Notes: generated by a model from the sequence alone, not told the origin. DNA of 64,000 nucleotides from Coriobacteriia bacterium (GCA_013336165.1 JAAXUF010000003.1:1-64000), one strand, 5' to 3'. Positions 4,436 through 49,851 are shown, counted from the stretch's first letter. Program-made: numbers and translations.

Positions 4436-4447
4436 CGGCGGCAGCGC

Positions 4448-5023: not shown

Positions 5024-5064
5024 GGGATCGATCCTTTCGTGTGTGTCGATTCCTGACCAGGTTC

Positions 5065-5925: not shown

Positions 5926-6148
5926 GTGCACTCCCGCCCTGACGCTATCTGTTTGCCAAGATTTGTGTTCCCACGATACACGAGTCGGCGGCGCTGCCCC
6001 CAAGAAGTCGTTACCGATCGGCACGCCATGTCGCCGTTTGTCGCGAACCCGGGGGACGGCGGCGCTCTCCTACTCGCCGATGGGTATATCGCCCGTACGT
6101 TCAATCAGTGCAATCCACCGCCGCCCGAGATCCCTTCCGGAGGACGCG

Positions 6149-6337
6149 ATGAATAGTGACGCGAACACAGCACTTCTGAGAGGCAAGAACGCCGGGTCCG
6201 ACAGCCGCCGAGACTCGGCGTCGGAGATCTCCCTCCTCATGGCGGACAGAGTCGGCGGACTCTACGCCGAGGAGGAGCGTCGTTCACGTCTCAAGCGGAC
6301 CGAGGACATGATCCGCAGAGCGCAGTCTTTGAGATAG
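6149..6337 (+). CDS. Small hypothetical protein, 62 residues
   Basis: A short reading frame with a good ribosome site (CGGAGG, seven bases before ATG). The product is charged and rich in Arg, Glu and Ser, with a predicted helix in its second half (EEERRSRLKRTEDMIRRAQS). No signal peptide, membrane segment or known motif is visible. It ends 70 bases before the ferredoxin-like gene on the same strand and may share its promoter. It is called a gene on the strength of the ribosome site only. Confidence 0.5.
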   Translation: MNSDANTALLRGKNAGSDSRRDSASEISLLMADRVGGLYAEEERRSRLKRTEDMIRRAQSLR

Positions 6338-6407
6338 CGTACCGGCGCTCAACCCTGCGATACTGACCTCTCAACAAATGAAACGAAATCACGGAGGCCT
6401 TCTGCGC

Positions 6408-7250
6408 ATGTGCCAATTCTGCGTCGAGCACGGTGAGGGCAAGCGCTGGTATCTTGAGGCCGCGAACTACGCGCACGATCTCGAGAGCGACCTGAAACGC
6501 CGAGACTACATGGTGGGCTTCATCCGCGACTTCGACTCGATGCGCGCAAACGGAATAGCGGGCATGGAGATTCTCGGAAAGCTGCCGAGACCGCTCGAGA
6601 CCGCCGGCAAGAACGCGGTCTCCCGCCATATGCGCAAGAAGCATTTCGGTCAGCCGCTTTCGCTTGAGGATTGCGCGGAAGTCTTCTCACTTGCGACCAG
6701 CATCACCGTCATCCCCTGCATCTGCCGCATGCACGCGCCCAACCGCGTCGCCGAGGAAGTCTGCATTCTGGTCACCACTCAGCCCATCACACCGCTGCTT
6801 GAAGAGGGCTTCAAAGACTACATCGACGGCCCCGATCTCGACGACTTTCGGACCGTCACCAAAGACGAAGCCATGTCTCTCCTGCGCTCATGCGAGGAGC
6901 GAGGGCTCCTGCACTCGATCTGGACGTTCAAAACACCCTTCACCGCTGCGATCTGCAACTGCAACCTCGCAAGCGGATGCATGGCGATGAAGATGACCGC
7001 GGGCTACGGCATGAAGATGATGTGGCGCGGCGAAGACATCGCACAGTTCGACGCCGAGAAGTGCTCAGGCTGTGGAGTCTGCGTCAGGCTCTGCCCGTTT
7101 GATGCAATCAGCACCAACCGCGGCGGAGGACCCGTGCGCCACGACGTCGCCAAGTGCTGGGGCTGCGGCATCTGCCGCGCGGGGTGCCCGCGGGATGCGA
7201 TCAGCCTGGCCGATCGGCGGAGCGTGCCCGCGGTCGCAAACCTCTGGTAG
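6408..7250 (+). CDS. Cysteine-rich 4Fe-4S protein with C-terminal two-cluster ferredoxin domain
   Basis: 280 residues from the ATG at 6408, which has GGAGG ten bases upstream; an ATG at 6378 has none. The N-terminus MCQFCVEHGEG is characteristic of a conserved anaerobe family without assigned function. Further cysteine groups occur in IPCICRMHA and CNCNLASGC. The C-terminus holds CSGCGVCVRLCP and CWGCGICRAGCP, a classical bacterial 2[4Fe-4S] ferredoxin. The protein probably relays electrons or carries an extra cluster in the upstream domain. It is cytoplasmic, with no signal or membrane helix. The partner enzyme is not evident from neighbours. Confidence 0.8.
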   Translation: MCQFCVEHGEGKRWYLEAANYAHDLESDLKRRDYMVGFIRDFDSMRANGIAGMEILGKLPRPLETAGKNAVSRHMRKKHFGQPLSLEDCAEVFSLATSITVIPCICRMHAPNRVAEEVCILVTTQPITPLLEEGFKDYIDGPDLDDFRTVTKDEAMSLLRSCEERGLLHSIWTFKTPFTAAICNCNLASGCMAMKMTAGYGMKMMWRGEDIAQFDAEKCSGCGVCVRLCPFDAISTNRGGGPVRHDVAKCWGCGICRAGCPRDAISLADRRSVPAVANLW

Positions 7251-7380
7251 CTCCTCGCAGCCCGAAGACTGTCGGCACTAAGGTGCCCGTCGACGTGGGA
7301 TGGCCGCCGGCGGGCACTTCACTACCCTTTGTACCCCTAGGATGTTGCAGATATGTTTCTCGCGCGGCTGACTTTGGTTT

Positions 7381-7959
7381 TTAGTCGCTCCGAAAGCCGT
7401 GTGGCTGGTCCTTGCTTTGCACGTCTCGCCGTCGCCGAGACGCACGCTGCACCCGCCGTTTCTCAACGATGAACGATGCTGCGGAAGCGGGGTCGAACTT
7501 CTCCCCCATACTGTCCGTGTTCGCCAGAATCGCCATGCCGAGCGCGATCCGTCCGGCGTGTTCCTCGTCTTCCGCGCACGTGGCAGCAACGAATGCTCCG
7601 ATGAGCAGCCCGTCTTGGCGCCACACCTCCACAACGTACTCCCACTCCCAACCAAGACCGTCTGCGGGCGCGCACACAGGAACACCTGACAGCGGGATCT
7701 CGGTAGTCCGGTCGAAGGCGGGGTCCTCACGCGGGGGCCACGGCGGGCGGGCAACATCGAGCACCCAAGCCGTCACCGCAACAGCAGTCTCCCGCACGTC
7801 TCGGTCGGCGTCCTCCAGCGCACGTTCCAACCAGAGAATGCGCTCGTCGCACTCCACATGCTGGAGCATCGCCACGGCACGCCTGCGTGTTGCCCTGCCG
7901 GACGATGACAGAGCGCGCTCAAGCACGCGATAAGGATTAGAACCACGCTCAACATTCAT
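7381..7959 (-). CDS. Hypothetical protein with HEAT-like N-terminus
   Basis: 192 residues, start ATG 7959. The first 65 residues contain two helical repeats resembling HEAT/PBS repeats (RRRAVAMLQHVE, then LERALEDADRDVRETAV). The rest has no motif I recognise and ends in an Arg-rich stretch. It is probably soluble and cytoplasmic, and may be a protein-interaction scaffold. It sits alone between the ferredoxin-like gene, with which it converges, and the second DegV gene upstream on the same strand. Confidence 0.6.
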   Translation of the reverse strand: MNVERGSNPYRVLERALSSSGRATRRRAVAMLQHVECDERILWLERALEDADRDVRETAVAVTAWVLDVARPPWPPREDPAFDRTTEIPLSGVPVCAPADGLGWEWEYVVEVWRQDGLLIGAFVAATCAEDEEHAGRIALGMAILANTDSMGEKFDPASAASFIVEKRRVQRASRRRRDVQSKDQPHGFRSD

Positions 7960-8044
7960 GCCGCATCACTCTCCGGGAACCAGAGTAGCTCGGCAGTCTG
8001 ACATGCCCGCCGGTGCGATCCCGGGCCACATGGAGCGCTTGGTG

Positions 8045-8905
8045 CTACGCAGGCCGCACGGTCACGCCCCACGCCGTGCCCACGTGAGTGGCAACCACGA
8101 TACCCGCCTCACAGATGTGCATCTCAGAGACCTGATACTGCTGCTCAATGTGCGCGCGCAGCCATTCCGCACGCTCGGGAGACATGGCATGCGTGATGGC
8201 GAACGCTCCGCGCTTGGCGCCGTTCATCTGCTCGGCGACCCACTCCAGCGTGTAACGGAGCGCCGCCTTCTCGCCGCGCAACCGTTTGAGCGGCTGAAAC
8301 TTGCCCTCCGCGTCAACCGTCAACGTCACCTTCAGGTCGAGCAACGCGCCGAGAAATGCGCTCACCTGGCCGATACGCCCGCCCTTCGCGAGGTTCTTGA
8401 GCGAGTCCAGCCCGACGAGCATCTTGACGCGTTCCCGCGCAACCTCAAGCCGCGAGATCGCTGCTGCCGGCGTAAGCCCTTCGGCCGCCGAGGCAGCCGC
8501 ATCGAGCGCCTGAAACGCGAGGCCCATCGAGAGGTTGCGCGAGTCGAAGACGTCGACGCGTCCCGGGAACCGTTCTGCGGCCTGCAGAGCCGCCTCGATC
8601 GTGCCGGAGAGTTTTGAAGAGATGTGGAGTGAGATGATGTGGTCGGCGCTCGCCAAGATGTGCTCGTACACCTCGATGAACGTGCCGACCGGGGGCTGCG
8701 AAGTGGACGGCAGCTGCGGCGCCGCATTCATGCGCTCGAAGAACTCGGCTTGCGTCAGCTCCCCGTCCTTGAACGTCTCATCTCCAAACGTCACGCTGAG
8801 CGGAACAACGACGATGTTTCGCTCGGCCGCCAGAGCCACAGGGATATCTGCGGTTGAATCGGTGACCACGACGAAGTTCGGTTTCGGTGATTCTGCTGCT
8901 GACAT
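8045..8905 (-). CDS. DegV family fatty-acid-binding protein (FakB-like), second copy
   Basis: 286 residues from the ATG at 8905, which puts VVVTDSTADIP near the N-terminus. Family features are TSQPPVG, ISSKLSGT and the LAKGGRIGQVS loop. The start lies eight bases past the gatB stop, and its ribosome site (AGGAG) overlaps the last codons of gatB, so it is translated with gatB. It is clearly diverged from the copy at 5065-5925. Likely job: binding a different acyl chain for FakA-dependent phosphorylation. Confidence 0.88.
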   Translation of the reverse strand: MSAAESPKPNFVVVTDSTADIPVALAAERNIVVVPLSVTFGDETFKDGELTQAEFFERMNAAPQLPSTSQPPVGTFIEVYEHILASADHIISLHISSKLSGTIEAALQAAERFPGRVDVFDSRNLSMGLAFQALDAAASAAEGLTPAAAISRLEVARERVKMLVGLDSLKNLAKGGRIGQVSAFLGALLDLKVTLTVDAEGKFQPLKRLRGEKAALRYTLEWVAEQMNGAKRGAFAITHAMSPERAEWLRAHIEQQYQVSEMHICEAGIVVATHVGTAWGVTVRPA

Positions 8906-8912
8906 GTCGGAA

Positions 8913-10475
8913 CTACTCCTCAAGTTTGCGTTTCAGGACCTCGTTGACCACGGCCGGATTCGCCTGCCCGCCGGTTTCGCGCATTACCTGTCCCACGAAG
9001 AACCCGATAAGTCCCGTCTTGCCGCTACGGTAACCCGCGACCTGCCCCGGGTTGGCCGCCAGAATGCGCTGGACGACCTCCTCGATGGCTCCCGTGTCGC
9101 TCACCTGCTTCATACCCTTGATTTCGACGATCGCACCCGGCGCGTCCCCGCTTGCAGCCATCTCGGCGAAGACTTCCTTGGCCTGCTTGGAAGAGATCGT
9201 GCCGTCCTCCACAAGCGCGACCAGCTCGGCGACCATGGACGGCACGACGCGCGAGTCCGTAACCGAGATGCCCTCGGCGTTGAGGTAAGCCGTGAGGTCG
9301 TTCAGGATCACATTCGAGATTGCCTTTGCGCGCTCGACCCCGCCGATCGCAACCGCGCTCTCGAAGAACTCGGCGAGATCGAAGTCGCCGATCAGGAGCG
9401 TGGCATCACGGACCGGAAGGCCATACGCCGCGATAAAACGTGCGCGCTTGGCATCGGGAAGCTCCGGCAGGCGACCGCGGATCTCGGCAATGAAGGCGTC
9501 GGAGAACTCGAAGGGCACCATGTCGGGCTCGGGGAAGTAGCGGTAGTCGTGCGCCTCTTCCTTGCTGCGCAGTGCGCTTGTTCGCTTGGCGCCGACGTCG
9601 TAGTGGCGCGTCTCCTGGATGACGCGGCCGCCGCCCTCGATCAGCTCGGCCTGGCGGACGATCTCATAGGCAAGCCCGTCGTGCAGTGCGCGGAAGCTGT
9701 TCATGTTCTTGATCTCGGCTTTGGTGCCAAACTCGGTCTGGCCGCGACGGCGCACGCTGACGTTCGCGTCGACGCGCATCGAGCCTTCCTCCATCGAGCA
9801 GTCGGAGATGGAAAGCGAGAGCCAGATGAGGCGCAACTTCTGCGCGAAACGGCGGGCCTCCTCGGGCGTGCGGATGTCGGGCTCGCTCACAAGCTCGATC
9901 AAGGGCGTGCCCGCGCGGTTGAAGTCGACGAGCGACTTCGTGGCGCCGGAGATGCGTCCTTCGCTGCCGCCGACATGGATCATCTTGCCGGTGTCCTCTT
10001 CGAGGTGGATGCGCGTGATGCCGATACGCGTCGTGTAACCGTCGCCGTCCGCCGACACCGTCACGCCCGTGGGCGCAGCCGCGAGGTCGTTGCGCTCATC
10101 GGCATCCCTGCCTTCGAGTTCGATATCGACCCAGCCCGCCGAACAAAACGGCAGGTCGTACTGCGAAATCTGGTAGTCCTTGGGCATATCGGGATAGAAG
10201 TACTGTTTGCGATGGAACTGGCTCCAGCGCGCGATCTCGCAGTTGGTCGCAAGGCCCGCGAGCACCGTGGACTCGATCGCAGCCTGATTGGGCACCGGCA
10301 GGGCGCCGGGCAGGCCGAGGCACACCGGGCACGTACGCGTGTTTGGCTCGCCGCCGAACGCCACCGCGCAGCCACAGAACATCTTGCTGTTCACTGTGGT
10401 GAGCTCGGTGTGGATCTCGAGGCCGATAACGGCTTCCCAGGTCTCAAGAACCTCTGCGAGACGGTCTTTCGCCAT
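8913..10475 (-). CDS. gatB: Aspartyl/glutamyl-tRNA amidotransferase subunit B
   Basis: 520 residues. The ATG at 10475 has AAGGAG nine bases upstream and places WEAVIGLEIHTEL at the start, as in all GatB proteins. CGC...CPVCLGLPG corresponds to the zinc site, FDFNRAG-type VDFNRAGTPL is conserved, and the tail is the YqeY-like helical domain ending in QVMRETGGQANP. GatB activates the side chain of misacylated Glu-tRNAGln/Asp-tRNAAsn and receives ammonia from GatA. In this window it is separated from gatCA by a membrane-protein gene and two terminators, so it is not in a simple gatCAB operon. Confidence 0.97.
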   Translation of the reverse strand: MAKDRLAEVLETWEAVIGLEIHTELTTVNSKMFCGCAVAFGGEPNTRTCPVCLGLPGALPVPNQAAIESTVLAGLATNCEIARWSQFHRKQYFYPDMPKDYQISQYDLPFCSAGWVDIELEGRDADERNDLAAAPTGVTVSADGDGYTTRIGITRIHLEEDTGKMIHVGGSEGRISGATKSLVDFNRAGTPLIELVSEPDIRTPEEARRFAQKLRLIWLSLSISDCSMEEGSMRVDANVSVRRRGQTEFGTKAEIKNMNSFRALHDGLAYEIVRQAELIEGGGRVIQETRHYDVGAKRTSALRSKEEAHDYRYFPEPDMVPFEFSDAFIAEIRGRLPELPDAKRARFIAAYGLPVRDATLLIGDFDLAEFFESAVAIGGVERAKAISNVILNDLTAYLNAEGISVTDSRVVPSMVAELVALVEDGTISSKQAKEVFAEMAASGDAPGAIVEIKGMKQVSDTGAIEEVVQRILAANPGQVAGYRSGKTGLIGFFVGQVMRETGGQANPAVVNEVLKRKLEE

Positions 10476-10591
10476 ACTTGAGCGCTCCTTCTGGCTTTTC
10501 ATGTTGCGCCGACGGATGGCGCGCATGCCATTTTCTGTACGGGCTGATTCTACCCGAGCGCACGGGCACGTGGGCGAAGACGTGGCAGGAC

Positions 10592-10626
10592 GACAAACAG
10601 GGGCGGCCTGGATGGGACCGCCCCTG
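10592..10626 (-). terminator. Rho-independent terminator after the Pro/Ala-tail membrane protein gene
   Basis: A perfect 9-bp stem (CAGGGGCGG at 10598-10606 pairing with CCGCCCCTG at 10618-10626) with an 11-base loop. Read on the minus strand it is followed by TTTGT. It lies 28 bases past the stop at 10654 and before gatB. Confidence 0.7.
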
Positions 10627-10653
10627 CTCTAGGACATCGAAAACGATGCAGTT

Positions 10654-11328
10654 CTACACCAGCCGAGCGGGTGGCGCAGGTGGCTCTTCCTCTGCGAGCG
10701 GCGCAGTCGGCGACCCGGGTGCCGGTGGCGCGGGTGGCGCGGGTGGCTCCGGCGCCGGTGGTGCTGGGGGCGCTGGGGGTGCAGGTGGCTCCGGCACTGA
10801 TGCCACCGGGGGGGCAGGCGCGACCGGCGGTGCCGGCGGAACGTAGCTGGCGGGCGGCGTGTAGGTCCCTTGCTCGTAGGCCGTCTTCTGGCTGGAGAGC
10901 GGCGCCATGGTCGGCCCGACACTGGTCTTGCCGAATGCGGCCTTCACGTCGGGAGTGAACAGGTAGTACAGGATGAACAGGTTGAACGCTAGGCCGAGTA
11001 GGTCGCTGAAAGCTGATCCACTTACGGCGACAAGCTGGATGAGGTTCGAGACGGCACCGATGGCCATCAGCACGACGCCCACCGTCCATGCCCAGCCCCG
11101 CAACTTCAGTGCGCCGAAGCCGAACACCATGTCCGCTGCGCCGATCAGCCCCAGCCAGAGCGCCAAGAACACGACAACGACTCCGCTTGCCGCGGCCGCA
11201 CCGCTTCCGGCTCCAAGCACGAGCAGCGCAAACCCACTAAACAGAGCCACGATGCCGCCGAGAACCGATAGTGCGCCGCCGATGATCGCCAGCCATCCGA
11301 TCACGGTAACGCCGGTCGGTCTGTTCAT
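10654..11328 (-). CDS. Four-helix membrane protein with Pro/Ala-rich C-terminal tail
   Basis: 224 residues from the ATG at 11328 (AAAGGGGA five bases upstream). Four hydrophobic segments lie within about residues 8-125, ending LFILYYLFTP. From about residue 150 the chain is a low-complexity tail of repeated PPA, PAPP and EPPAPP units, ending EEEPPAPPARLV. The first half resembles generic small integral proteins of unknown function. The tail could be an extended linker or a protein-binding region. The repeat is visible in DNA as GGTGGC-type triplets around 10680-10830. No function can be assigned. It lies between gatA and gatB on the same strand but is bracketed by terminators. Confidence 0.75.
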   Translation of the reverse strand: MNRPTGVTVIGWLAIIGGALSVLGGIVALFSGFALLVLGAGSGAAAASGVVVVFLALWLGLIGAADMVFGFGALKLRGWAWTVGVVLMAIGAVSNLIQLVAVSGSAFSDLLGLAFNLFILYYLFTPDVKAAFGKTSVGPTMAPLSSQKTAYEQGTYTPPASYVPPAPPVAPAPPVASVPEPPAPPAPPAPPAPEPPAPPAPPAPGSPTAPLAEEEPPAPPARLV

Positions 11329-11447
11329 GTGATCCCCTTTCACATCCTTGGTCCCAACGTATCAGTCGACACGCCGACGGCGTCTTCTCTTGAGCCGTCT
11401 GTCGCGTTGTATTCCCATTCGTTGCCAAACCAACCACTTCGATCGGC

Positions 11448-11481
11448 GAAAAACACGAAGGCTGCACAATGGCAGCCTTCG
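11448..11481 (-). terminator. Rho-independent terminator after gatA
   Basis: A perfect 10-bp stem (11456-11465 with 11472-11481) and six-base loop. Read on the minus strand it ends in TGTTTTTCG. It lies 30 bases past the gatA stop, so gatCA transcription ends before the next gene. Confidence 0.82.
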
Positions 11482-11511
11482 AGGTGAATCGAGTCATGCC
11501 GCGTTCGCCGT

Positions 11512-12999
11512 CTACCGCGCGAGGGGACTCCTCAGATCCAGCGCCAGATCGCGCTCGAGCGCCGCGGCGGCGCGATAGATCGTGCTCTCGGCGAAGTAGT
11601 CGCCGATGATCTGCAAGCCGATCGGCATCCCGTCGGCCGAGAAGCCACACGGCACGTTGATCGCGCAGTTGCCGGCCAGATTGACCGGGATCGTGTAGAT
11701 GTCGGAGAGGTACATCGTCAGCGGGTCGCCCTTCTCGCCGAACTTCCACGCAACCTGCGGGCTTGTCGGCGTGAGCAGCACGTCGTAGTCCGCAAACGCC
11801 GCCGAGAACTCGCGTGCGATCAGCGTGCGCGCCTTCTGCGCCTGGCCGTAGTAGGCGTCGTAGTAGCCGGCCGAGAGCGCATAGGTGCCCAGCATGATGC
11901 GACGCTTCGCTTCAGGCCCAAAGCCTTCGGCGCGCGAGCGCAGGTAGAGGTCGATGGTATCGGCGGGGTTCTCGGCGCGGTGGCCGTAACGGATGCCGTC
12001 GAATCTCGCGAGGTTCGAGGATGCCTCAGCGGGACCGATGATGTAGTACGCCGAGAGGCCATGCTGGCTCGTGGGCAGGTTGACCTCGCCCACCGTCGCG
12101 CCCATCGCCTCGAATCCCGCAGCGGCAGCAAGCACGGAATCGCGGACCTCTGAGGTGACGCCCTCGGCGTCGAGGAGGTCGCGCACGATCGCGACCCGCA
12201 GGCCGCGCACGTCGGCGTCGCGCGTGGCGGTCACGAAATCCTCCGGCACGCGGTCGGCCGAGGTCGCGTCGGCCGGGTCCTTACCCTGGATCGCGCTCAG
12301 TGCACGCGCGTTGTCGGCGACCGTGCGAGAGAACGGGCCGATCTGGTCGAGCGAACTCGCGAACGCGACGCAACCGTAGCGGCTGACGCGGCCGTACGTC
12401 GGCTTGATCGCGACGGTGCCGGTGAGCGCGCCCGGCTGGCGGATCGAGCCGCCGGTGTCGCTGCCGAGTGAGATCGTCGCCATGCCGGCCGCAACCGCCG
12501 CGGCACTACCGGCGCTGGAGCCGCCGGGCACGCGAGAGAGGTCCCACGGGTTCTTCACCGGGCCCCACGCGCTCGACTCGCCCGACGAGCCGAAGGCGAA
12601 CTCGTCCATGTTGCACTTGCCCAGCGGAATCACGCCGGCGGCGATCATCCGCGCGACCGCCGTGCAGTCGTACGGACTCACGTAGTTCTCGAGAATGCGG
12701 CTCGAGCACGTCGTGCGCGTGCCGATCAGGTTCATATTGTCCTTGAAGGCGGCCGGCACGCCTGCGAGCGGCGGCAGGTCAGCCTCGCTCGCACCACCGC
12801 GCACGAGCGCATCGATGCGTTCCGCGGCGGCGATCGCCAGATCGGCCGTCACCTGATTGAAGGCGTTGACCTCACCGTCGAGGGCGTCGATGCGCGCTAG
12901 AGCGGAGTTGGCGACCTCGACAGCCGAGAACTCCCCGGCCGCGATACATCCGCGGATCTGCTCGGCGGTCATGTTCGAGACGTCGATTTTGTGGGTCAC
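11512..12999 (-). CDS. gatA: Aspartyl/glutamyl-tRNA amidotransferase subunit A
   Basis: 495 residues of the amidase-signature family. The Ser-cisSer-Lys triad is visible as K86 in AFKDN, the cis-serine in GGSSAGSA (about 161-162) and the nucleophile in DTGGSIRQP (S185). GatA hydrolyses glutamine and sends ammonia to GatB for transamidation of Glu-tRNAGln or Asp-tRNAAsn. The start overlaps the gatC stop by four bases (ATGA), indicating translational coupling. Confidence 0.97.
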   Translation of the reverse strand: MTHKIDVSNMTAEQIRGCIAAGEFSAVEVANSALARIDALDGEVNAFNQVTADLAIAAAERIDALVRGGASEADLPPLAGVPAAFKDNMNLIGTRTTCSSRILENYVSPYDCTAVARMIAAGVIPLGKCNMDEFAFGSSGESSAWGPVKNPWDLSRVPGGSSAGSAAAVAAGMATISLGSDTGGSIRQPGALTGTVAIKPTYGRVSRYGCVAFASSLDQIGPFSRTVADNARALSAIQGKDPADATSADRVPEDFVTATRDADVRGLRVAIVRDLLDAEGVTSEVRDSVLAAAAGFEAMGATVGEVNLPTSQHGLSAYYIIGPAEASSNLARFDGIRYGHRAENPADTIDLYLRSRAEGFGPEAKRRIMLGTYALSAGYYDAYYGQAQKARTLIAREFSAAFADYDVLLTPTSPQVAWKFGEKGDPLTMYLSDIYTIPVNLAGNCAINVPCGFSADGMPIGLQIIGDYFAESTIYRAAAALERDLALDLRSPLAR

Positions 13000-13298
13000 T
13001 CGTCATCGCCTCCCCCGGTGATCTGCGGGATCACGAAGGCGCCGTTCTCGGCGAGGGGGGCGTTGGAGATGGCGACGGCCTGAGGGAAGCTCGGGCGAGC
13101 AACGTCGGGACGGGTCACGTTGACGACCTCGATCGCGTGCGCCATCGGCTCGACACCAGCCAGATCGAGGCGCTGGATCTCATCGATGTGGCCGAGAATG
13201 GAGTTCAAGTCACTCTGCATGGCCTTGGTCTCCTCGTCGGTCAGGCCAAGGCGCGCGAGCATCGCCACATGGCGAACGTCGTGCTCGGAAAGGGACAT
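12996..13298 (-). CDS. gatC: Aspartyl/glutamyl-tRNA amidotransferase subunit C
   Basis: 100 residues, the normal GatC length, beginning MSLSEHDVRHVAMLARL and with the family core DLNSILGHIDEIQRLD. It wraps around the GatA/GatB interface to stabilise the complex. AAAGGA lies ten bases before the ATG. It is coupled to gatA by an ATGA overlap. Confidence 0.95.
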   Translation of the reverse strand: MSLSEHDVRHVAMLARLGLTDEETKAMQSDLNSILGHIDEIQRLDLAGVEPMAHAIEVVNVTRPDVARPSFPQAVAISNAPLAENGAFVIPQITGGGDDE

Positions 13299-13355
13299 GC
13301 GGATGGTCCTTTCGTGCGGATGTGAGAACGCACTCCATCATACCCGAGTTGCGCG

Positions 13356-14455
13356 CTACCGCACCGCCATGAAGGCGGCGACGACGGCCGCCGAATTGTA
13401 GAGCATATGCAGCAGAATCGCCGATGCAAGCGAACGCCGAGTCCACGCGATCCAGCCCAGCGCCACCCCCAGCACGAACGTGGGCAGGAGCATCCAGAGG
13501 CTGAGGTGAGAGGCGGCGAACAACAGCGCCGAGGCGATGATCGCCGGCCACATCCCCCACTTCTCGCCGAGCGCGTTCAGGACCACGCCGCGAAACGCCA
13601 GCTCTTCCACGACCGGGGCGACGAGTGCCACCAGCGCGACGGCGAGCACCGCGCCTGCGGTTCCCGCGCCAAACACCGCCGTCAGGTCGCTCGACAGACG
13701 CACCGGCTGCGCCCAGCCGAGAGCCTCCACAGCGAGGCTGTACACAAACGCGACGAACTCGATGCCCAAGAACAAAGCGATGGCCAACCCTGCGGAGCCC
13801 ATGCGCGCGAGCACCGAAGGCCCGGTTGCGCCCTTGACGCGCCGCAACCCGAACGCCTCGAGCAACCCCACGTTGCGGCGCGACGCGAGAAAGGCGAGCA
13901 CGCCGATCTGCAGCGCATAGAACACCACCAGCACGACCACGCGCATGGCGACCTTGCCCGAGAAGGGCATCAGCGAGATCGCTCCCATGCCCAGAACCGC
14001 AGTCTTCGCGTACATCGCAAGCATCAGCACCGAGAGCACCGCAACGGCGTCAAGCAGCGTCCATCCCGCGACGACGCCCGATGACGAACGCGACGGGGGC
14101 TTCGGCTTCGCCGTGGATGTTGCCTTGGCCGACTTGCGCCACGCGGTACCGTCTGACGCGGTCGCGACGGGCTTCGTCGATGCAGCGGACTCGGCGGGCC
14201 TAGCGGCATCGCCAGCCCTCTCGGCGAGACTGCTGTCGGAGGCGGCACCGCGCGCTGACGCATTCGCCGGACGCACGATGGCGTCTCGGCGACACGCCTC
14301 GACGCAGGCCGCACAGCTCGTGCAGGCCGCCCAATCCACGTAGATGTAGGTGGGCCCCACGTTCACAGCCCCAACCGGACATACGGCCATGCAGGCGCCG
14401 CACCTGTCGCATCTGTCGGGATGAAGCGTGAAGCGTTCCATTCTGACGCCCGCCA

Positions 14456-14459
<4 letters not shown>
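13356..14459 (-). CDS. Ferredoxin-CPBP fusion: 2[4Fe-4S] domain joined to a CAAX-type intramembrane protease
   Basis: 367 residues from the ATG at 14459, which overlaps the preceding CPBP stop by four bases. Residues 1-60 form a two-cluster ferredoxin (CDRCGACMAVCP and CTSCAACVEACR). A Ser/Ala/Lys-rich linker (about 65-140) follows, then about eight membrane helices. The CPBP/Abi motifs are present: EELAFRG (EExxxR), ASHLS, and a late HMLYNS. Such enzymes cleave near prenylated or similar membrane substrates, or act in bacteriocin resistance. Joining a ferredoxin to one is unusual and could make proteolysis redox-dependent, which is my inference. A later in-frame ATG (MERFTL) is a possible alternative start. 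Confidence 0.85.
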
Positions 14460-17630
<3,171 letters not shown>

Positions 17631-17810
17631 GTGGCGGTCTTCCTTTCATCCGGCGAACTGCCAAAAACGGCGCGGTAACGAAGCGCCGCTTCACATTCTA
17701 TCGCTTCCACCTGCGCAGGTTCGCCGATTGTGGCGATACCTTCTACGCTATATCCTTGGAACAGCGACATTCCTCTGTCCGTCCTCTGAAGAAACGGTGG
17801 AACCGCCGCC

Positions 17811-18839
17811 ATGGAACAGGTCTTGGGTCTTTGCATCTCGCTTGACCGCTCGGCTCACCAGACGTTCACGCACATGGCAGCTGACTGCTCCGACCCTGAA
17901 CTTGCGGCAGTGTTTCGCCGCATGAGCAGCGAAGAGTCCACTCACGTGTCTTGGTGGTCGCAACTTCTCGAACAGTCGCATGCCGGCCTCCTCCCTCCGC
18001 TTGCAGATAAGGACGAAGTTGTCGCGCAGCTTGAAGCGATCCAATCCGAGTTCGCGCAGACGATTCCCGCAGACACGGCTGGGCTGCCCTGCGACCGCAT
18101 GCTTGAGATCGCGCTTCGCATGGAGTTCTTCATGCTCGATCCGCTCTTTGGGGAGCTGCTCGATCTGCTGGATCCCGGCGCGACGACCAATCATGCCGAC
18201 GAGTACGCCCAGCACGTGATCGGCCTCACAAAGGCCATCGAAAAGCACTACAGCCACAGGGAAATTGCGCCGATGCTCGCTGGGATCCTGACTCGCATCT
18301 TCGCCGAGCAGGGCGTGCTCGCGACTTTGGCTGTCCACGACCCGCTCACCGGAATCTACAACCGCCGCGGCTTCTACGGCTACCTTCAGCAGTGGTCGGC
18401 CTGGTCGGAGCGCTACGAACACCCGCTTGCCGTACTTCTCATCGACGTCGACAACTTCAAGACGATAAACGACACTCTGGGGCACCCCGCGGGAGACACA
18501 GTGCTCGAGTCCGTCGCTGCGGCGCTGGGCAAGGCCGTGCGAAAGGTCGACGCGGTCGGCCGATACGGCGGCGACGAATTCGTCATCCTGGCTCCCGAGA
18601 CCGGCGCAGCGGAACTACCGATGCTTATGGAGCGGGTGCTGCAGATGGTGCGAGAGGCTCGGCCGCTCTCGGAGGACCAGCGCGCTCGAGTTACCGTCAG
18701 TGTAGGCGGAGCGTACACGAGCGGCGGGCTCGCGGTGACTCCGGAGCAACTGCTCTCGGCGGCGGACCGCTCTCTCTACGAGGCGAAGGCGGCGGGAAAA
18801 GACTGCGCGGGCACGCCGATCGAGATCACAGCGGAGTAG
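17811..18839 (+). CDS. Diguanylate cyclase with N-terminal ferritin-like domain
   Basis: 342 residues. The C-terminal GGDEF domain (about 170-335) is intact: DPLTGIYNRRGF, GGDEF at 253-257, and an RxxD inhibitory site (RKVD) exactly five residues before GGDEF, so it should make c-di-GMP and be feedback-inhibited. Residues 1-165 are all-helical with EESTH at 41-45, E105, and histidines at 128, 135, 147 and 149. These are spaced like the metal ligands of ferritin-like or rubrerythrin-like four-helix bundles. No membrane helix is present, so it is a soluble sensor. Iron or oxygen sensing through a di-iron site is an inference. It is divergent from the DUF2469-ligA operon. Confidence 0.85.
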   Translation: MEQVLGLCISLDRSAHQTFTHMAADCSDPELAAVFRRMSSEESTHVSWWSQLLEQSHAGLLPPLADKDEVVAQLEAIQSEFAQTIPADTAGLPCDRMLEIALRMEFFMLDPLFGELLDLLDPGATTNHADEYAQHVIGLTKAIEKHYSHREIAPMLAGILTRIFAEQGVLATLAVHDPLTGIYNRRGFYGYLQQWSAWSERYEHPLAVLLIDVDNFKTINDTLGHPAGDTVLESVAAALGKAVRKVDAVGRYGGDEFVILAPETGAAELPMLMERVLQMVREARPLSEDQRARVTVSVGGAYTSGGLAVTPEQLLSAADRSLYEAKAAGKDCAGTPIEITAE

Positions 18840-18861
18840 GAGCGGGCGTGAACCGCGCCGC

Positions 18862-19758
18862 CTAGAGTCCTGCGGCGAGTTCGCCTGCGTGGTAGCTCGA
18901 GCGCACGAACGGCGCGCTCGCCACGGCTGCGAACCCGAGTTTGTAGGCGTCGCGTGCCAGCTGCGCGAACACACTCGGCTCGACGAACTCGGCTACGGGA
19001 AGATGCGCCGCGCTCGGCCGAAGGTACTGGCCCAGCGTGAGCGCCGTGACACCGTGCGCGAGCAGGTCGTGCATGACTTCGCGCACCTCGTCCGGCGTCT
19101 CGCCAAGCCCGAGCATCAGCCCCGACTTCGTGGGCAGATCCGGCTGTGTTTCGCGCACGCGCGCCAGCACCGCAAGCGAGCGGGTGTAGTCAGCGCCGGG
19201 GCGCACTTCGGCGTACAAGCGAGGAACGGTCTCGAGGTTGTGGTTGAAGACCTCCGGACGGGCCGCCGCCACAGCGTCGACGCTCTCCATCCGGCCTGCG
19301 AAGTCGCTGGTGAGCACCTCGACGGCCGTCTCCGGCGCAGCCGAGCGGACCGCGTCAATGACCGCGACCATATGGGCGGCACCGCCGTCAGCCAGATCAT
19401 CGCGCGTCACCATCGTGATCACGACATGCGACAGCCCCATCCGCACCACAGCCTCGGCCAGCCGCGCCGGCTCTCCCGAATCGAGCGCCTCCGGAACGCG
19501 CGTCTCCACCGCGCAGAAGCGGCACCCGCGCGTGCAGGCATCACCCATCACCAGAAACGTCGCGGTTCCTTCCGCGAAGCACTCCCCGCGGTTGGGGCAC
19601 TTGGCCGACTGGCATACGGTTGAAAGCCCCAGCTCGCCGAGCAACCCGGCAACCTCGGTCCCGCGTCCGGGCGTGGCGACCGGCCGCCTCAGCCAGGCCG
19701 GAAGCCTGGCCTCTGTGGAACCGTGCCGATACGCGCCGTCTTGTGTGCCGTTGCTCAT
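18862..19758 (-). CDS. lipA: Lipoyl synthase
   Basis: 298 residues, a radical SAM enzyme that inserts two sulfurs into protein-bound octanoyl groups. The auxiliary cluster motif reads CQSAKCPNRGEC and the radical SAM motif CTRGCRFC. The C-terminal SSYHAGE carries the family RSSYxA motif. The start follows the lpdA stop directly (TAGATG), so the two are cotranscribed and coupled. No lipB, lplA or lipoyl-domain gene lies in the window. Confidence 0.96.
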   Translation of the reverse strand: MSNGTQDGAYRHGSTEARLPAWLRRPVATPGRGTEVAGLLGELGLSTVCQSAKCPNRGECFAEGTATFLVMGDACTRGCRFCAVETRVPEALDSGEPARLAEAVVRMGLSHVVITMVTRDDLADGGAAHMVAVIDAVRSAAPETAVEVLTSDFAGRMESVDAVAAARPEVFNHNLETVPRLYAEVRPGADYTRSLAVLARVRETQPDLPTKSGLMLGLGETPDEVREVMHDLLAHGVTALTLGQYLRPSAAHLPVAEFVEPSVFAQLARDAYKLGFAAVASAPFVRSSYHAGELAAGL

Positions 19759-43800: not shown

Positions 43801-43885
43801 GCAGCTTTGAGTTCGAAGAGCGCGTGGCTCAAACCCATGCCACCTGCTAGGATGCCTAGCGGGCGTTTTGGAGGATGCGAGTACC

Positions 43886-44578
43886 GTGCAGGATGACCTG
43901 AGAGACAACAGAGCGGAAGAACGCGCGATGCGGCGACGCAGGCGCGCACGCCGCGACAGGTGGATCGCAAGCGCTATCGCCGTTGTCGGCGTGCTTGTTG
44001 TCGTGGGCGCGATCGCTGGCGTGGTTCACCTAGTCTCGCCGGCACGCGCCGAGAACACTTCGGCGGACAGCAGTGCGGCTTCAGCCTCCGTCGCAGCAAC
44101 GTCATCCCCGGCATCGGCGGTGGCCACGGCATCCGTGCCGGCTTCAACCCCGCCTGTCGCGACGCCGCCGGCCGAGACCCCCAAACCCGCTGCGACGTAC
44201 AAAACCGACGGTAAGCGGACGATCGTCGTCTACCGGAGCCGCCAGGAGATCACGCTCTTCGCCGAGGACGGCAACGAGGTCGCTACCTACCTCTGCTCGA
44301 CGGGCGAGTACTACCCGGTACCCGGAACATACAGCGTGTCCGATCACCAGCAGGCCTCATACGAAGCTGACCTGCGGTTCTACTACTTCACGATCTTCGC
44401 CAAATCGGAGAAGGGCAACAACATCGGCTTCCACTCGGTTCCGATCGATGCTGCAGGAGTCTCCGTCGGCGGGCTGGGCCAGCCGGTTTCGCATGGCTGC
44501 GTGAGGATCGCGTACGACAATGCAAAACTGGTGTACAGCTGGGCGGCCGTGGGAACCAGGGTCGTAGTGGTCAAGTAG
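43886..44578 (+). CDS. L,D-transpeptidase (YkuD domain), membrane-anchored
   Basis: 230 residues from the GTG at 43886; GGAGG lies 11 bases upstream. An Arg-rich cytoplasmic start (MRRRRRARRDRW), one membrane helix (about 28-48), an Ala/Ser/Pro linker, then the YkuD domain (about 110-230) with the catalytic motif SHGCVRI. It crosslinks peptidoglycan stem peptides 3-3 or attaches wall proteins. The last base is ten bases before the decayed PAP2 fragment. Confidence 0.9.
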   Translation: MQDDLRDNRAEERAMRRRRRARRDRWIASAIAVVGVLVVVGAIAGVVHLVSPARAENTSADSSAASASVAATSSPASAVATASVPASTPPVATPPAETPKPAATYKTDGKRTIVVYRSRQEITLFAEDGNEVATYLCSTGEYYPVPGTYSVSDHQQASYEADLRFYYFTIFAKSEKGNNIGFHSVPIDAAGVSVGGLGQPVSHGCVRIAYDNAKLVYSWAAVGTRVVVVK

Positions 44579-44587
44579 GAGCGATCC

Positions 44588-44703
44588 TACCTGCGCCGCC
44601 AGCTCACATACGCCCTAGCGCGATCACGACCGTTACAGCCAACGCTTCAGCACGCGAGGCTATCCGCGCTTGACCGCATAGCCGACCGGTGCCCGAATAT
44701 GCT
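44588..44703 (-). pseudogene. Decayed 3' fragment of a PAP2 phosphatase gene
   Basis: CCTGCGCCGCCAGCTCACAT and the following six bases (44589-44614) match the PAP2 3' end at 49194-49219 with two mismatches in 26. Then, after loss of about 100 bases, 44619-44703 lines up with 49317-49404, including identical CTTGACCGCATA. It has the same orientation as the intact gene. No reading frame survives. Confidence 0.75.
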
Positions 44704-44710
44704 GCAAGGC

Positions 44711-44747
44711 AAGAGAAGAGCAGCGGCCCAGAAGCCCGAACCGCTGC
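44711..44747 (-). terminator. Probable terminator of the reductase operon
   Basis: GCAGCGG (44720-44726) pairs with CCGCTGC (44741-44747) around a 14-base loop. Read on the minus strand it is followed by TCTTCTCTTG. It lies 30 bases past the cytochrome stop. Confidence 0.55.
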
Positions 44748-44777
44748 CTCACTGCTCTATCGATCGAGAACCGACTC

Positions 44778-45341
44778 TCAGTTGTCCGGATTCTTCCAAC
44801 CCTCTGGGAGTTCCCAGCTGTGACAGCTGTTGCAGAAGAGAGTCGAAGTGCCGTGCATACTGTGGCATTCGTAGCAGTTCATCACCCCTTGGTGCGAACT
44901 GTGGGGGTTGGCATTCTCACCGCCGCCGTAGTCTCCAGTGGCCTTTGTGACGTCATCATAGTTGTGGCAACCTTCCTGAAGACAGAATTTAGGGGTGGCA
45001 AACTTGCGCCCCTCAAGCGGATCGTTGAAGTTGCCGGTCACCCACTTGCCGGCCTCGGCAAGTTGCTCCGAAAGCGCGGGTTCGTGGCAGTCGAGACATG
45101 AGACCCCATTGTCTGCATGCGCGGTGATAAGGAGCTTGCCGTCATTGCCGTAATAGCCATTCACATACGCGTTCATCGGTGAATGGCATATGGCGTTGCA
45201 GAAGCTCGGCTTGCTGTGAAGGTAGAAGAACCCGCCGACAAGGGCAACGACTACTATGATAATGATGCCCAGCGTGATCCAGAGTCTCTTTCGGGACTTC
45301 TTGAACTTCACGGAGCCCATTAGGGCTTCGGTGTCTGACAT
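44778..45341 (-). CDS. Membrane-anchored multiheme cytochrome c, NapC/NrfH-like
   Basis: 187 residues: a basic cytoplasmic start, one membrane helix (about 21-42), then an exported domain with five potential heme sites. CLDCH (82-86), CYECH (156-160) and CNSCH (170-174) are standard. CNAICH (48-53, CX3CH) and CLQEGCH (120-126, CX4CH) are atypical. Quinol-oxidising NrfH/NapC relatives pass electrons from menaquinol to a periplasmic reductase. The only candidate acceptor is the flavoprotein gene upstream in the same operon (68-base gap). Confidence 0.88.
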   Translation of the reverse strand: MSDTEALMGSVKFKKSRKRLWITLGIIIIVVVALVGGFFYLHSKPSFCNAICHSPMNAYVNGYYGNDGKLLITAHADNGVSCLDCHEPALSEQLAEAGKWVTGNFNDPLEGRKFATPKFCLQEGCHNYDDVTKATGDYGGGENANPHSSHQGVMNCYECHSMHGTSTLFCNSCHSWELPEGWKNPDN

Positions 45342-45409
45342 CTACGACTCACTTCCTGTGGCATTCACGGAGTGGCGATTCTAACAGTCTGCTTGCCATG
45401 CGACGTCAG

Positions 45410-47119
45410 CTATTTAGGCTCATTTCCGAGCAGTTGTTTGAGGGGATTCGCGGTAGTACGATCGGCCAGAGGCCCATCGTATTCCTTGTCGCCATACCAG
45501 TTTTTGGCAACCGTCCCACCGAGAAGGTTTGCTACGGCATGACGAGCGGCCACGCTTCCGCTCCATAGAGCCACGGCCTGAGATGTGCCGGTGCTGTATA
45601 CCTCAACGTTGAAACCGTGGACGCTGATGCCTCCAGCGTACAAGCCTTCGATGGGGGTGAAGAACGGATCACAGACACGGCAGGACTCGTCGATACGGAT
45701 TCCTCCGTTGGTCTGAATAATGCCGGAGAAGATCCTGAATCCGTAGTAGGGGCCGTCACCGAGAGAAACCATGTATTTTGCGGTCTTGCCGAGAACAGAG
45801 TCGCCGGTACCAGCTGTCACGTTCGCTTCATAGGCCTTGATAGTGTTCACGAACGTATCACTAGGCACTCCCATCGCTTGCGCAAGCCCCTCAAGAGTTG
45901 GCGCAGTGAAGACGTATTTATTGTCCTTGTACTTCGCCAGATCACTGTCGAGACTGGTAGGTGTCTTGTAGTAGTAGTACCAGAGCGCGTCTGACCCCTT
46001 TGTCTCGAAGTACTTCTTCAGATTCTGTCCGAATATCGAGAAGCAATAGCCTTCTGTCTCGATGGCTTTGCCAGCCGGGATGAAGGGATACACAGAAGTC
46101 GCCTCTTCATTCACAAATCGCTCACCACGCTGATTCACCCAGACGTTCGTTGGCTGCAGGGCCACGGCGACTCCTAGCGGCGAGGAAAAAGAAAATCCCT
46201 TCACATTGTGGAACATGCCCGTGGGATAAACGCCCTTGCACATGCCATGAGCGGTCTGCTCAACCATAAGATGACCGTCGCCATCCTGACCGGCACCGAG
46301 CCCGAGGCACTTCTGCTGCACATCTTCGCCCGTGTAGTATGAGAGCAGGTCCAAGTTGGTTCCCATGCCGGCCGTGGCCAACAGGACAGCTTTTGCGTTG
46401 ATGTTCTTGTACGCGCCAGAGACAACGTCGAGAGCTTGCACGCCAGTGCACTTGTGATCACTGGCCAACAGAAGTGCGGTCGCTCGGGTGTTCAAGCGAA
46501 TTTCGACATTAGCGTAGGCTGAGTCGGACTTGATCTGGCTGGTGAGTTTCGCCATCGATTTGGCACCGTTGCGAGTCTCATAGTACATATGGGTTTCGTC
46601 GAGAAGAACGCCGTGTTTGGTGAAGAGCCATGCCGAGTTCTTGGCTGCATCGAGGTACAGATTGACCAACAGTGCCGGATCCTTCAGATACGTGCTAGCC
46701 TTGAACATGTCAAGAGCCTTCTGCCTAGCGGCCGCATAGGTTGTTGCACGAGCCGGCGCGTTGATCTCCGCAAAATTGCTGTTCCCGCCAGTAGCGGAAA
46801 GCTTCTCGAGCAAGAGTATCTTCGCCTTCGGCATCTGTTCTGCTGCGATCATCGAGGCCGTGAGACCAGTCAAACCCGCCCCCACAACCACGAAGTCGAA
46901 CGTTTCTTGAACAGACGTGTTCTGTACGATTCCTATCTTTGCGGAGTTCTCATAGGTGGTGTATTTAGTTCCTTTTGCAGTCCCAGTATCCTGCGCTCCC
47001 TGACTTTGAGAAGTGCACCCTGCCGCAGCGACTCCCATGGCCATAGAGGTCAACGCTGCGCCTTTTAGAAATGCCCTTCTCGTCAGCGTCCTTGGACCTT
47101 GTTCTGAAACAGTAATCAT
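45410..47119 (-). CDS. Tat-exported FAD-dependent reductase of the fumarate reductase/flavocytochrome family
   Basis: 569 residues. The Tat signal TRRAFLKGAA is followed by a hydrophobic stretch and AAAGC, a possible lipobox (C35). FAD binding starts at VVVGAGLTGLTAS; the C-terminal segment GLYAGGISVHGFNVEVYSTG is the second FAD contact. In fumarate reductases the equivalents of IIQTNGG and HGFNV read HHTMGG and HGANR; the substrate-binding His and Arg are missing, so fumarate is unlikely. It probably reduces another organic acceptor outside the cell with electrons from the cytochrome downstream. Confidence 0.86.
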   Translation of the reverse strand: MITVSEQGPRTLTRRAFLKGAALTSMAMGVAAAGCTSQSQGAQDTGTAKGTKYTTYENSAKIGIVQNTSVQETFDFVVVGAGLTGLTASMIAAEQMPKAKILLLEKLSATGGNSNFAEINAPARATTYAAARQKALDMFKASTYLKDPALLVNLYLDAAKNSAWLFTKHGVLLDETHMYYETRNGAKSMAKLTSQIKSDSAYANVEIRLNTRATALLLASDHKCTGVQALDVVSGAYKNINAKAVLLATAGMGTNLDLLSYYTGEDVQQKCLGLGAGQDGDGHLMVEQTAHGMCKGVYPTGMFHNVKGFSFSSPLGVAVALQPTNVWVNQRGERFVNEEATSVYPFIPAGKAIETEGYCFSIFGQNLKKYFETKGSDALWYYYYKTPTSLDSDLAKYKDNKYVFTAPTLEGLAQAMGVPSDTFVNTIKAYEANVTAGTGDSVLGKTAKYMVSLGDGPYYGFRIFSGIIQTNGGIRIDESCRVCDPFFTPIEGLYAGGISVHGFNVEVYSTGTSQAVALWSGSVAARHAVANLLGGTVAKNWYGDKEYDGPLADRTTANPLKQLLGNEPK

Positions 47120-47592
47120 TGAAATCCCTTCCTCCCTTAGAGCTCAGTGTCTTCTTTCCCTCATAACGAGTCTAGAAGGGGAGGCAAAACGGCGGTATCA
47201 CTCGCCGCGGATGAATCCATGTGCGGCTTCTTGTATTCGCATCACCCGTGGCGTGTGATAGTCGGTAAGTAGACCCTTTGCATACGCACCGAGTGGAGTC
47301 TCGGCAGAAAGCCTCAACTGACTAGCCGTGCGGCATGGAAGGAAAAGCCAAGCACGACTGGGATGTGCCGCCCCTGAGGCTCTTTCGACTTCAGGAAGGC
47401 CAAGGGGCACCGCTCCCCGCCTTTGGGCTTGTCTCCGTCGCTGCATCCACCTCACCGAAGCACCGGCGTGCGGTTCTCGTGACTCGATCTCCTAGTGTTA
47501 TGATGCCAACTGACTGTGAGCCTCATGGGATGGCTCTCTTTCGCTTCGGGGGTTCGTATTGCCAAACGACTGTCCTTGGGAAGTGACTCGTC
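47120..47592. other. Intergenic control region between reductase operon and LuxR gene
   Basis: 473 bases without a convincing gene. It must hold divergent promoters. The reductase has GGGAGG about 12 bases before its ATG. A TATGAT near 47498 could be a -10 for the regulator. No clear operator palindrome was found. Confidence 0.6.
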
Positions 47593-49074
47593 GTGAATGA
47601 GCACGGAATGCCTCAGATTCTGAGAGTCGTCCTGCTTCTGCTTGGGATCTCTTTCTATCTGCTCTGGTTGATCGCAGGGGTCTTCAGCTTCCTAGTGTGG
47701 TATGGCGATTCGCCCTACCATGGAATGAACGCATGGCTGGTGACTCTGGTCGCGAATGCGGTCTCCCTGGCACTGGCATATTTTCTCGTCAGACGGATAG
47801 GTCCCCTAGTCCAGAGAATCCCCATAGTAGTAGCGTCAGCATGTGTGACAGCAGCGGGTATCGCATTGGTTTCTATTGCGTTGAATGTCGATGGGTATCT
47901 CCAGTTCATGATTCCTGGATGTGTGCTCACTGGTATTGGAGCAGGACCGCTTGCGCTCTGCTGGCGGGAGTGTTCCGAGGATTTGGCATCAAAACGGATC
48001 CAACGCAGCTTGTTCGCTCTGGCCATGGCATTGGATACCATGTTCTATCTGCTCGTCGTCTCGCTTCCGTTTGTCGTGGCCTTGATAATCTGCACGCTGG
48101 CCCCGATCTGTTCGGCCTTGTTCTTCCTCTATTCCTTCGACTCCTCGTCGAAGGCCGGGTCCGTCCTGAAACAGGAGAGAGTGACTGTGACAGCCTCTCA
48201 GAGGGGAACGGCCCTGGCAAGAGAGCAGGGAACACATCTGGCAATGTTGCTGCTCTGCTGCCTTTCCTTGTCATTCGCACAAGGAGTCTTCCGGACCGGT
48301 TTCCCGGCGGCAAGTGCGCGGTTGCCCTGGACCCTGATAATATCGAGTGCCGTATTGACGATTGTGGGCGTAGCTGCAGTCGACCTGTTTCTGCTGCAGA
48401 GGCTGCCGAGCAAGACTCTCCCACGTCTGTTCTTCCCCGTTGTGGTGATTGCGTGTCTGGCAATGCCCTTCTTCGTATCCCAAGACGCCTCGATCGCCCA
48501 TTTCTTCACTTTTGCCGGTTGCTTCCTGCTCATGGTCTATCTCTATTCCGAGGTAGATGCGGCAAACCCGGGCAGACATCTTCCGACGCAAGTCTTCGCA
48601 CTAGGGATCATCGCCTCAAATATCGGCTGCATCTTAGGAATCGTCTTTGGGAACATGGCGGGGAGCACCTCTACTACGGCGGTAGTAGGGTTACTTTACG
48701 CGGCTGTGTGCCTCGCTCTATGCCTATGTCGCGAACTGAGGAAGTCCTCGGTAGAGAGTGAACGCTTCTTGCCCGTGGCCAAGTCCGGAGAGAAGTACAA
48801 CATATTTCGGATCCCTGCCGAGCCGGGAATGACCATGATAGACAGCATTTCCCGCCAATGCCATGGCGCAGCGATACAGTACGCACTCTCGACACGCGAG
48901 GAGGAAGTGCTGCGGTACTTGGTCAGGGGGAAGAGCGCAAAATCGATAGCGAGCAGCACATATATCTCCTACAACACCACGAAGACCCACATGAGCCACA
49001 TCTACCAGAAGCTTGGCATACACACGCGCGAAGCGATGATTCAACTTGTGGAATCCATCACAATCAATGAGTGA
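47593..49074 (+). CDS. LuxR-family regulator with 12 membrane helices
   Basis: 493 residues from a GTG. About 12 hydrophobic segments fill residues 8-400 in an MFS-like arrangement, followed by a LuxR helix-turn-helix (about 430-490): STREEEVLRYLVRGKSAKSIA, then YNTTKTHMSHIYQKLGIHTR. Regulators of this form are abundant in Eggerthella-type bacteria, usually beside a reductase gene they control, and are thought to sense the substrate at the membrane. It is divergent from the flavoprotein-cytochrome operon. Confidence 0.92.
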   Translation: MNEHGMPQILRVVLLLLGISFYLLWLIAGVFSFLVWYGDSPYHGMNAWLVTLVANAVSLALAYFLVRRIGPLVQRIPIVVASACVTAAGIALVSIALNVDGYLQFMIPGCVLTGIGAGPLALCWRECSEDLASKRIQRSLFALAMALDTMFYLLVVSLPFVVALIICTLAPICSALFFLYSFDSSSKAGSVLKQERVTVTASQRGTALAREQGTHLAMLLLCCLSLSFAQGVFRTGFPAASARLPWTLIISSAVLTIVGVAAVDLFLLQRLPSKTLPRLFFPVVVIACLAMPFFVSQDASIAHFFTFAGCFLLMVYLYSEVDAANPGRHLPTQVFALGIIASNIGCILGIVFGNMAGSTSTTAVVGLLYAAVCLALCLCRELRKSSVESERFLPVAKSGEKYNIFRIPAEPGMTMIDSISRQCHGAAIQYALSTREEEVLRYLVRGKSAKSIASSTYISYNTTKTHMSHIYQKLGIHTREAMIQLVESITINE

Positions 49075-49167
49075 GCTGCTGACCAGTAGCCTATGAGGCA
49101 TGGTTCATGGGAATAGAATCCAGCCAACAGGAACGAAAGCTTGAATGGGAGATGGCCTGCCTGTAGT

Positions 49168-49196
49168 GGCGCTAGGAACAGTTTGTCCCTAGCGCC
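49168..49196. repeat. Perfect 9-bp inverted repeat over the PAP2 stop codon
   Basis: GGCGCTAGG (49168-49176) and CCTAGCGCC (49188-49196) with an 11-base loop. No T-run on either side, so terminator activity is uncertain. It marks the right edge of the reductase module. Confidence 0.6.
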
Positions 49197-49851
49197 TGCG
49201 CCGCCAACTCGCATACGCCCCCGCGCACAACGACAACCACGCCCCGCCGAACAGCCACGACGCGATCACATCGCTGGGCCAATGGACGCCGAGGTAGACC
49301 CGCGAAAGCCCCACCAGCACGATCACGACTGCGGCGACCACAGCAGTCAGTACCCGGGGCCATCCGCACTTGACCGCATAACCCACGAGCACCCCGAACA
49401 TGCCGAAGAACAGCAGTGATGCCAGCGCATGACCGGACGGGAACGAGTACGACGTCGGCAACGCGATCAGGGCATTGCCGGATGGAGGCCGCGTCCGCAC
49501 GTACAGGTTCTTCGCCAGTGCCCCGAGGAGCGCTCCCGCCCCGACCGTCCCGGCAAGCGCGATCGCCTCGGCACGGTGTCTGAACGCGTAGAGCCCCAGC
49601 GAGACCACAGCGACCAGCAGCCACATCGTGGCGCCATTCGCAATCGAAGTCACGAGCATAAATACGCGCGTCAGTTCGGGCGTGCGCCAGGCGTGCACAG
49701 CTGCTGTGACGCTGCTGTCAAACTTCGCGATCGCCGAGGAGATCCGGAAGTCCTCGGCGAGTTCGAAGAATGCTGCGAGGCACAGGGCGGCCACAGCCAC
49801 CCCCGCCAGAAGCGGCCAGATGCGGCGCGTGCGCGTTCTCGCCCGGGCCAC
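49189..49851 (-). CDS. PAP2 family membrane phosphatase
   Basis: 220 residues from a GTG directly after the pyrophosphatase stop (TAGGTG). Six hydrophobic segments and all three phosphatase motifs: KNLYVRTRP, FPSGH, and SRVYLGVHWPSD. Likely dephosphorylates undecaprenyl pyrophosphate or phosphatidylglycerol phosphate at the outer face of the membrane. Its 3' end is repeated, decayed, at 44588-44703. Confidence 0.92.
   Translation of the reverse strand: MARARTRTRRIWPLLAGVAVAALCLAAFFELAEDFRISSAIAKFDSSVTAAVHAWRTPELTRVFMLVTSIANGATMWLLVAVVSLGLYAFRHRAEAIALAGTVGAGALLGALAKNLYVRTRPPSGNALIALPTSYSFPSGHALASLLFFGMFGVLVGYAVKCGWPRVLTAVVAAVVIVLVGLSRVYLGVHWPSDVIASWLFGGAWLSLCAGAYASWRRRR

Follow-up and report, generated by a model that had tools for sequence, protein, structure and literature searches.

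A three-gene reductase module between two copies of a PAP2 gene end in a Coriobacteriia genome, with a parallel case at clpB

In the draft genome of a Coriobacteriia bacterium (28 contigs, 1.99 Mb, 99.5% complete), three compositionally foreign genes, encoding a multihaem cytochrome c, an FAD-dependent reductase and a membrane LuxR-type regulator, lie between an intact PAP2 phosphatase gene and a decayed direct copy of its 3' end. A second LuxR-reductase unit of the same genome is bracketed in the same way by 3' ends of clpB. On balance, we favour the interpretation that foreign DNA bearing a PAP2 3' end of its own recombined within the resident one, probably by a single RecA-type crossover.

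The module and the PAP2 gene ends

The window, i.e. the whole stretch of DNA analysed, is 64 kb long. The locus within it is ordered PhoB-PhoR, LDT, cytochrome c, FAD reductase, membrane LuxR, PAP2, a CBS/DRTGG/DHH pyrophosphatase-type gene and UvrD. The relevant features, in window coordinates, are the following.

43868..44578, plus strand: L,D-transpeptidase (LDT, YkuD), left neighbour of the module (Pfam PF03734, E 1.4e-15)
44588..44703, minus strand: decayed, putatively displaced PAP2 3' end (two colinear blocks against PAP2)
44778..45341, minus strand: multihaem cytochrome c, Cgr1-like, with an N-terminal membrane anchor (Cytochrom_c3_2, E 4.2e-12)
45410..47119, minus strand: FAD-dependent reductase of the flavocytochrome c / fumarate-urocanate reductase type (FAD_binding_2, E 4.6e-30)
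47593..49074, plus strand: membrane LuxR-type regulator, N-terminal multi-TM part and C-terminal GerE domain (GerE, E 1.8e-14, residues 432-485)
49166..49194, no strand: hairpin GGCGCTAGGaaca/tgtCCCTAGCGCC at the boundary between the module and the PAP2 stop (read off the sequence)
49189..49851, minus strand: intact PAP2 phosphatase (PF01569, E 8e-20, and relatives)

The three module genes have a GC content of 54.0-54.8% (GC3 63-70%), compared with 64.0-68.1% (GC3 77-85%) for PhoR, LDT, PAP2, MnPPase and UvrD. LDT is native in composition (GC 64.0%, GC3 76.8%), and the drop in GC coincides exactly with the three genes between the PAP2 end copies. Gene-by-gene GC and GC3 thus agree with the preliminary description, in which the enclosed genes had been noted as lower in GC than their surroundings: the module is compositionally foreign.

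The remnant at 44588-44703 has the same orientation as PAP2 and aligns with it in two colinear blocks. In the first (44590-44615 against 49195-49220, alignable to about 49226), 24 of 26 bases are identical; the second (44616-44703 against about 49316-49402) comprises 86 aligned bases at about 74-76% identity. Between them, about 95-100 bp of PAP2 sequence are missing from the remnant. The local alignment scores of the two blocks (42 and 52) lie above those of the best dinucleotide shuffles (30 and 29) and not at chance level. When a 161-bp left stretch was searched against the whole genome, the two PAP2 blocks (E 1.2e-5 and 1.5e-4) were its sole matches apart from itself, and the reciprocal search starting from the PAP2 end gave the same result. 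Alignment, shuffles and genome search therefore bear out the earlier claim of a direct 3'-end copy composed of a 24/26 block and a second block. Chance similarity is ruled out by the shuffles and the genome-wide search, and chance or an assembly artefact is scarcely credible as the source of the repeat. Nothing was found in favour of such an origin in this 28-contig draft; the two colinear blocks have no further match anywhere in the genome and the copy is diverged and frameshifted, without any long exact stretch able to mislead an assembler.

The remnant retains an in-frame stop, one codon short of that of PAP2, and contains indels; mismatches in the second block fall on the three codon positions as 3/6/13, only a mild bias. 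At the 24 sites that differ between the two copies, the relative G001 sides with the intact gene in 16 cases and with the remnant in 3, matching neither in the other 5. Most differences are thus attributable to later decay on the remnant branch, and so the PAP2 copies alone give no evidence of two alleles.

In 22 of the 29 loci from relatives, PAP2 and PhoR converge on each other without an intervening module (in G002, of the same family, the two genes are about 50 bp apart), which places the remnant on the ancestral PhoR side. LDT, despite its native composition, is absent from the PhoR-PAP2 gap of relatives. The module-free arrangement exists in relatives with PhoR as the facing gene; the exact empty site anticipated in the preliminary description, with PAP2 directly convergent on the transpeptidase, was not found among these relatives, none of which is of the same genus. 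Two of them carry other cargo in the gap, an O-antigen-ligase-like gene in G001 (L097 9986-11440) and a 1474-aa glycosyltransferase in G003 (L099 6293-10717). Neither is accompanied by any PAP2 3'-end copy, and the idea of the gap as a hotspot marked by such copies was discarded.

The closest solved structures to the module reductase are PDB 1qo8 (E 5.6e-22) and 6t85 (E 8.4e-19), a flavocytochrome c3 fumarate reductase and a urocanate reductase. Its best NCBIfam model is VprA, with a score below the cut-off; judging from an RR motif and a Cys at the N-terminus, the protein is probably exported. The cytochrome matches NCBIfam cytcCgr1 (E 8.6e-39) with 133 bits, below the cut-off of 340, and has five haem-like CxnCH motifs, two of them with unusual spacing (CX3CH and CX4CH, besides CX2CH). 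Hydrophobic segments run along residues 5-384 of the regulator; their count in a crude hydropathy scan is 14, with partial overlap among them, beside the 10-12 TM segments of membrane LuxR regulators of the DadR/CadR type. The module may serve the respiratory reduction of an organic acceptor, induced by the LuxR protein. Searches of 68 other genomes of the order returned no orthologue of the reductase at E<=1e-30. In the class, it occurs mainly in one reductase-rich family, the best match, from a different family, being 54% identical. Carriage on plasmids was considered and dropped, as no match was retrieved among 72,556 plasmids at E 1e-40. The genome encodes some 15 additional FAD reductases and approximately 25 LuxR-type regulators, whereas few candidates occur in its relatives within the order. 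Two tandem LuxR genes elsewhere in the genome (C6:8001-28000, stretch positions 14223-17332), 94% identical over 1554 bp, are a recent duplication.

A sister case at clpB

A second module lies on the same contig as the PAP2 locus (C3:204000-218000), bordered on one side by the intact clpB gene. On the other side, 5.2 kb away, the final 477 bp of clpB recur as a direct copy (5481-5957 and 10721-11197 within that stretch), 92.7% identical, and the repeats enclose nothing but the genes for a LuxR regulator and an FMN/FAD reductase of 846 aa, the latter absent from the other genomes of the order. The automatic annotation labelled the pair as paralogues because of a spurious antisense ORF over the copy; on inspection, the copy is a truncated clpB end.

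The 35 differences between the two ends are distributed over codon positions as 3/1/31, and the encoded ends are 97.5% identical. This third-position bias, together with the protein identity, indicates that both ends were translated and under selection until shortly before they were joined, and the codon-position pattern identifies them as two alleles and not as a decayed in-situ duplicate. The copy is followed by a terminator and then by rrf2-cydA, which is also found downstream of clpB in G001, of the same family, one gene further on. Given that the copy adjoins rrf2-cydA, it would most simply be the native end, displaced by an allele that arrived with the module and now completes clpB. The bases of relatives do not point to either copy as the foreign one, with counts of 12:9, 11:12, 10:16 and 9:15 and no consistent side.

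Within the clpB repeat, a central tract of 128 bp is identical in both copies (permutation P 0.00027 under random placement of mismatches, i.e. 0.027% of trials). Relatives show ordinary third-position divergence over the same tract, which is not conserved in them. The improbability of the tract and its lack of conservation in relatives point to a crossover or conversion inside the repeat. The copies at PAP2 are too decayed to reveal a trace of this kind. The clpB case is the younger of the two.

Possible routes of arrival

In the preliminary description, the module was suggested to have been inserted at a PAP2 3' end or to have come in with a copy of one. This proposal is supported by the position of the remnant, the foreign composition, the absence of the reductase from the order and the parallel at clpB, where the evidence for two alleles makes arrival of the module together with a gene end the better common explanation for PAP2 too. 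The incoming DNA would have consisted of the cytochrome c, FAD reductase and membrane LuxR genes plus a copy of the PAP2 3' end. Recombination within the resident PAP2 3' end would have let the incoming end rebuild PAP2, so that the last part of the intact gene would be module-borne. The resident end would have been pushed to the far side, beside LDT and PhoR, where, severed from its 5' part, it would have decayed. The likeliest route would be a single RecA-type crossover between 3' ends, by which a circular or tandem form integrated. This order of events at PAP2, the circular intermediate and the type of enzyme are all inferred. We prefer the RecA route given the length of the repeats, the conversion-like tract at clpB and the lack of an integrase within the units.

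Site-specific integration would give precisely this displaced-end anatomy if the units were integrase-less att-flanked elements, comparable to CIMEs, with the gene 3' end as att and a tyrosine integrase supplied in trans. The same genome also has att-like copies of tRNA 3' ends around reductase modules (on C16, on C20, there with an integrase, and on C1). However, no integrase was found between or next to the PAP2 or clpB repeats, nor did one come to notice at the clpB end of five relatives or in the PhoR-PAP2 gap of those examined at that locus; the repeats, about 216 bp at PAP2 before the internal loss and 477 bp at clpB, are also long for att sites. We regard this route as unlikely. We hold the same view of homology-facilitated illegitimate recombination, in which a linear donor with homology in the gene is joined non-homologously inside the resident 3' end. 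This process, known from natural transformation, leads to the same final anatomy, and the far junctions are without obvious shared sequence, but it gives no reason to expect the identical tract of 128 bp at clpB. The third alternative, that part of PAP2 was duplicated in situ, the module inserted later between the copies and the outer copy decayed, would account for the differences at PAP2 lying mostly on the remnant branch. For PAP2 taken by itself it is conceivable. It requires two events, however, and does not work for clpB, whose two ends diverged at third positions while still under coding selection; overall, we consider it quite improbable.

Beyond the single RecA-type crossover that we favour for these loci, a more general reading is that compact integrase-less LuxR-reductase units of anaerobic Coriobacteriia use a carried gene 3' end as a homing sequence, circulate among close relatives and rebuild their target. 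This is speculative and rather doubtful; if true, it would explain how respiratory abilities are gained singly.

Occurrence and relation to known systems

Apart from paralogues, clpB and PAP2 were the only protein genes with directly copied 3' ends in 1.13 Mb surveyed (57% of the genome), a survey that took in nearly all LuxR/FAD loci found in the genome. Both copies bracket LuxR-reductase modules; the sample is small, and we claim no significance for a link to reductases. Most of the 19 LuxR/FAD loci are without such a copy, so that gene-end copies were rejected as a rule for all reductase modules. They were likewise rejected as a class-wide rule, since no such flanks were seen around reductase genes in 362 kb each of the Coriobacteriia genomes G142 and G202. 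One of these two samples contained 14 LuxR and 13 FAD genes, none of them with the pattern, which is therefore not general.

Insertion at gene ends is a pattern already known, and the units described here belong to that broad kind. In Escherichia coli, the elements e14 and phage 21 carry the 3' end of the protein gene icd, and the native end is displaced to the far side (icd/icdC); e14 encodes its own integrase, and the differences between icd ends are mostly synonymous. Both PAP2 and clpB resemble this system: the target 3' end recurs as a direct copy at the far edge of the unit, and the gene on the near side is rebuilt and intact. The displaced copy lies by the ancestral neighbour, rrf2-cydA for clpB and the PhoR side, with LDT intervening, for PAP2, and at clpB the differences are again biased to synonymous sites (3/1/31). 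In contrast to e14, the units are of 4.6-5.2 kb, contain regulator and reductase genes only and lack an integrase.

The ssrA islands of Dehalococcoides carry reductive dehalogenases and have a tmRNA target, a 20-bp repeat and a serine recombinase; 15 of them are without an integration module and have been likened to cis-mobilizable elements (PMC3146451). Respiratory reductase genes between 3'-end direct repeats are common to both systems, but here the targets are protein genes, the repeats are 116-477 bp long and no recombinase was seen in the units. CIMEs derive from ICEs or IMEs and share att sites with a partner element (PMC5704250). The units have comparable att-like flanking repeats and no integration or transfer genes, whereas a partner element is absent at PAP2 and clpB. 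In Eggerthella lenta, LuxR regulators with 12 TM segments are found beside reductase loci such as cgr and dadh, of which cgr is strain-variable (PMC9734109). The kinds of genes are the same, a membrane LuxR protein and a reductase with a Cgr1-like cytochrome, but E. lenta belongs to another order of the class, and the proteins described here fall below the Cgr1 and VprA cut-offs. Gene-end repeats were not seen at loci of the E. lenta type in the single reductase-rich genome that was sampled. The units are distinguished by protein-gene targets, small size and the lack of a recombinase.

In anaerobic Coriobacteriia, LuxR-reductase loci are numerous and vary between strains; they act on drugs, plant compounds and organic acceptors, and their spread is poorly documented. 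Two independent reductase units that displace the 3' ends of ordinary protein genes in one genome offer a concrete, testable route for it. The clpB case suggests how respiratory genes are acquired, and its copy is fresh enough to be tracked in populations.

Several other repeat arrangements were noted in the same genome. Copies of tRNA-Arg flank a reductase module on C16 (C16:1-20000, 2775-13365; 40-bp exact copy, no integrase), a unit in which a truncated apbE accompanies a complete one, and another on C20 (3788-9062; 72 bp), alongside a tyrosine integrase. On C1 (C1:40001-60000, 10535-19179), three copies of the 3' end or flank of tRNA-Pro stand in series after the gene, and a fumarate-reductase-like pair separates the last two. 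The LuxR/FAD locus on C7 has a pair of IS fragments. In a control stretch (C6:70001-90000), a gene pair for a GntR protein and an ABC ATPase lies between 142-bp copies at 1188-1329 and 3712-3853, which are 96.5% identical and include the 5' half of a tRNA-Ser-like sequence. Finally, at least 13 attC-like repeats of about 70 bp lie between small ORFs on C9 (C9:1-20000), and C22 encodes, at about 4.4-5.4 kb, a 319-aa tyrosine recombinase resembling an integron integrase; together, they apparently represent an integron cassette array in a Coriobacteriia genome.
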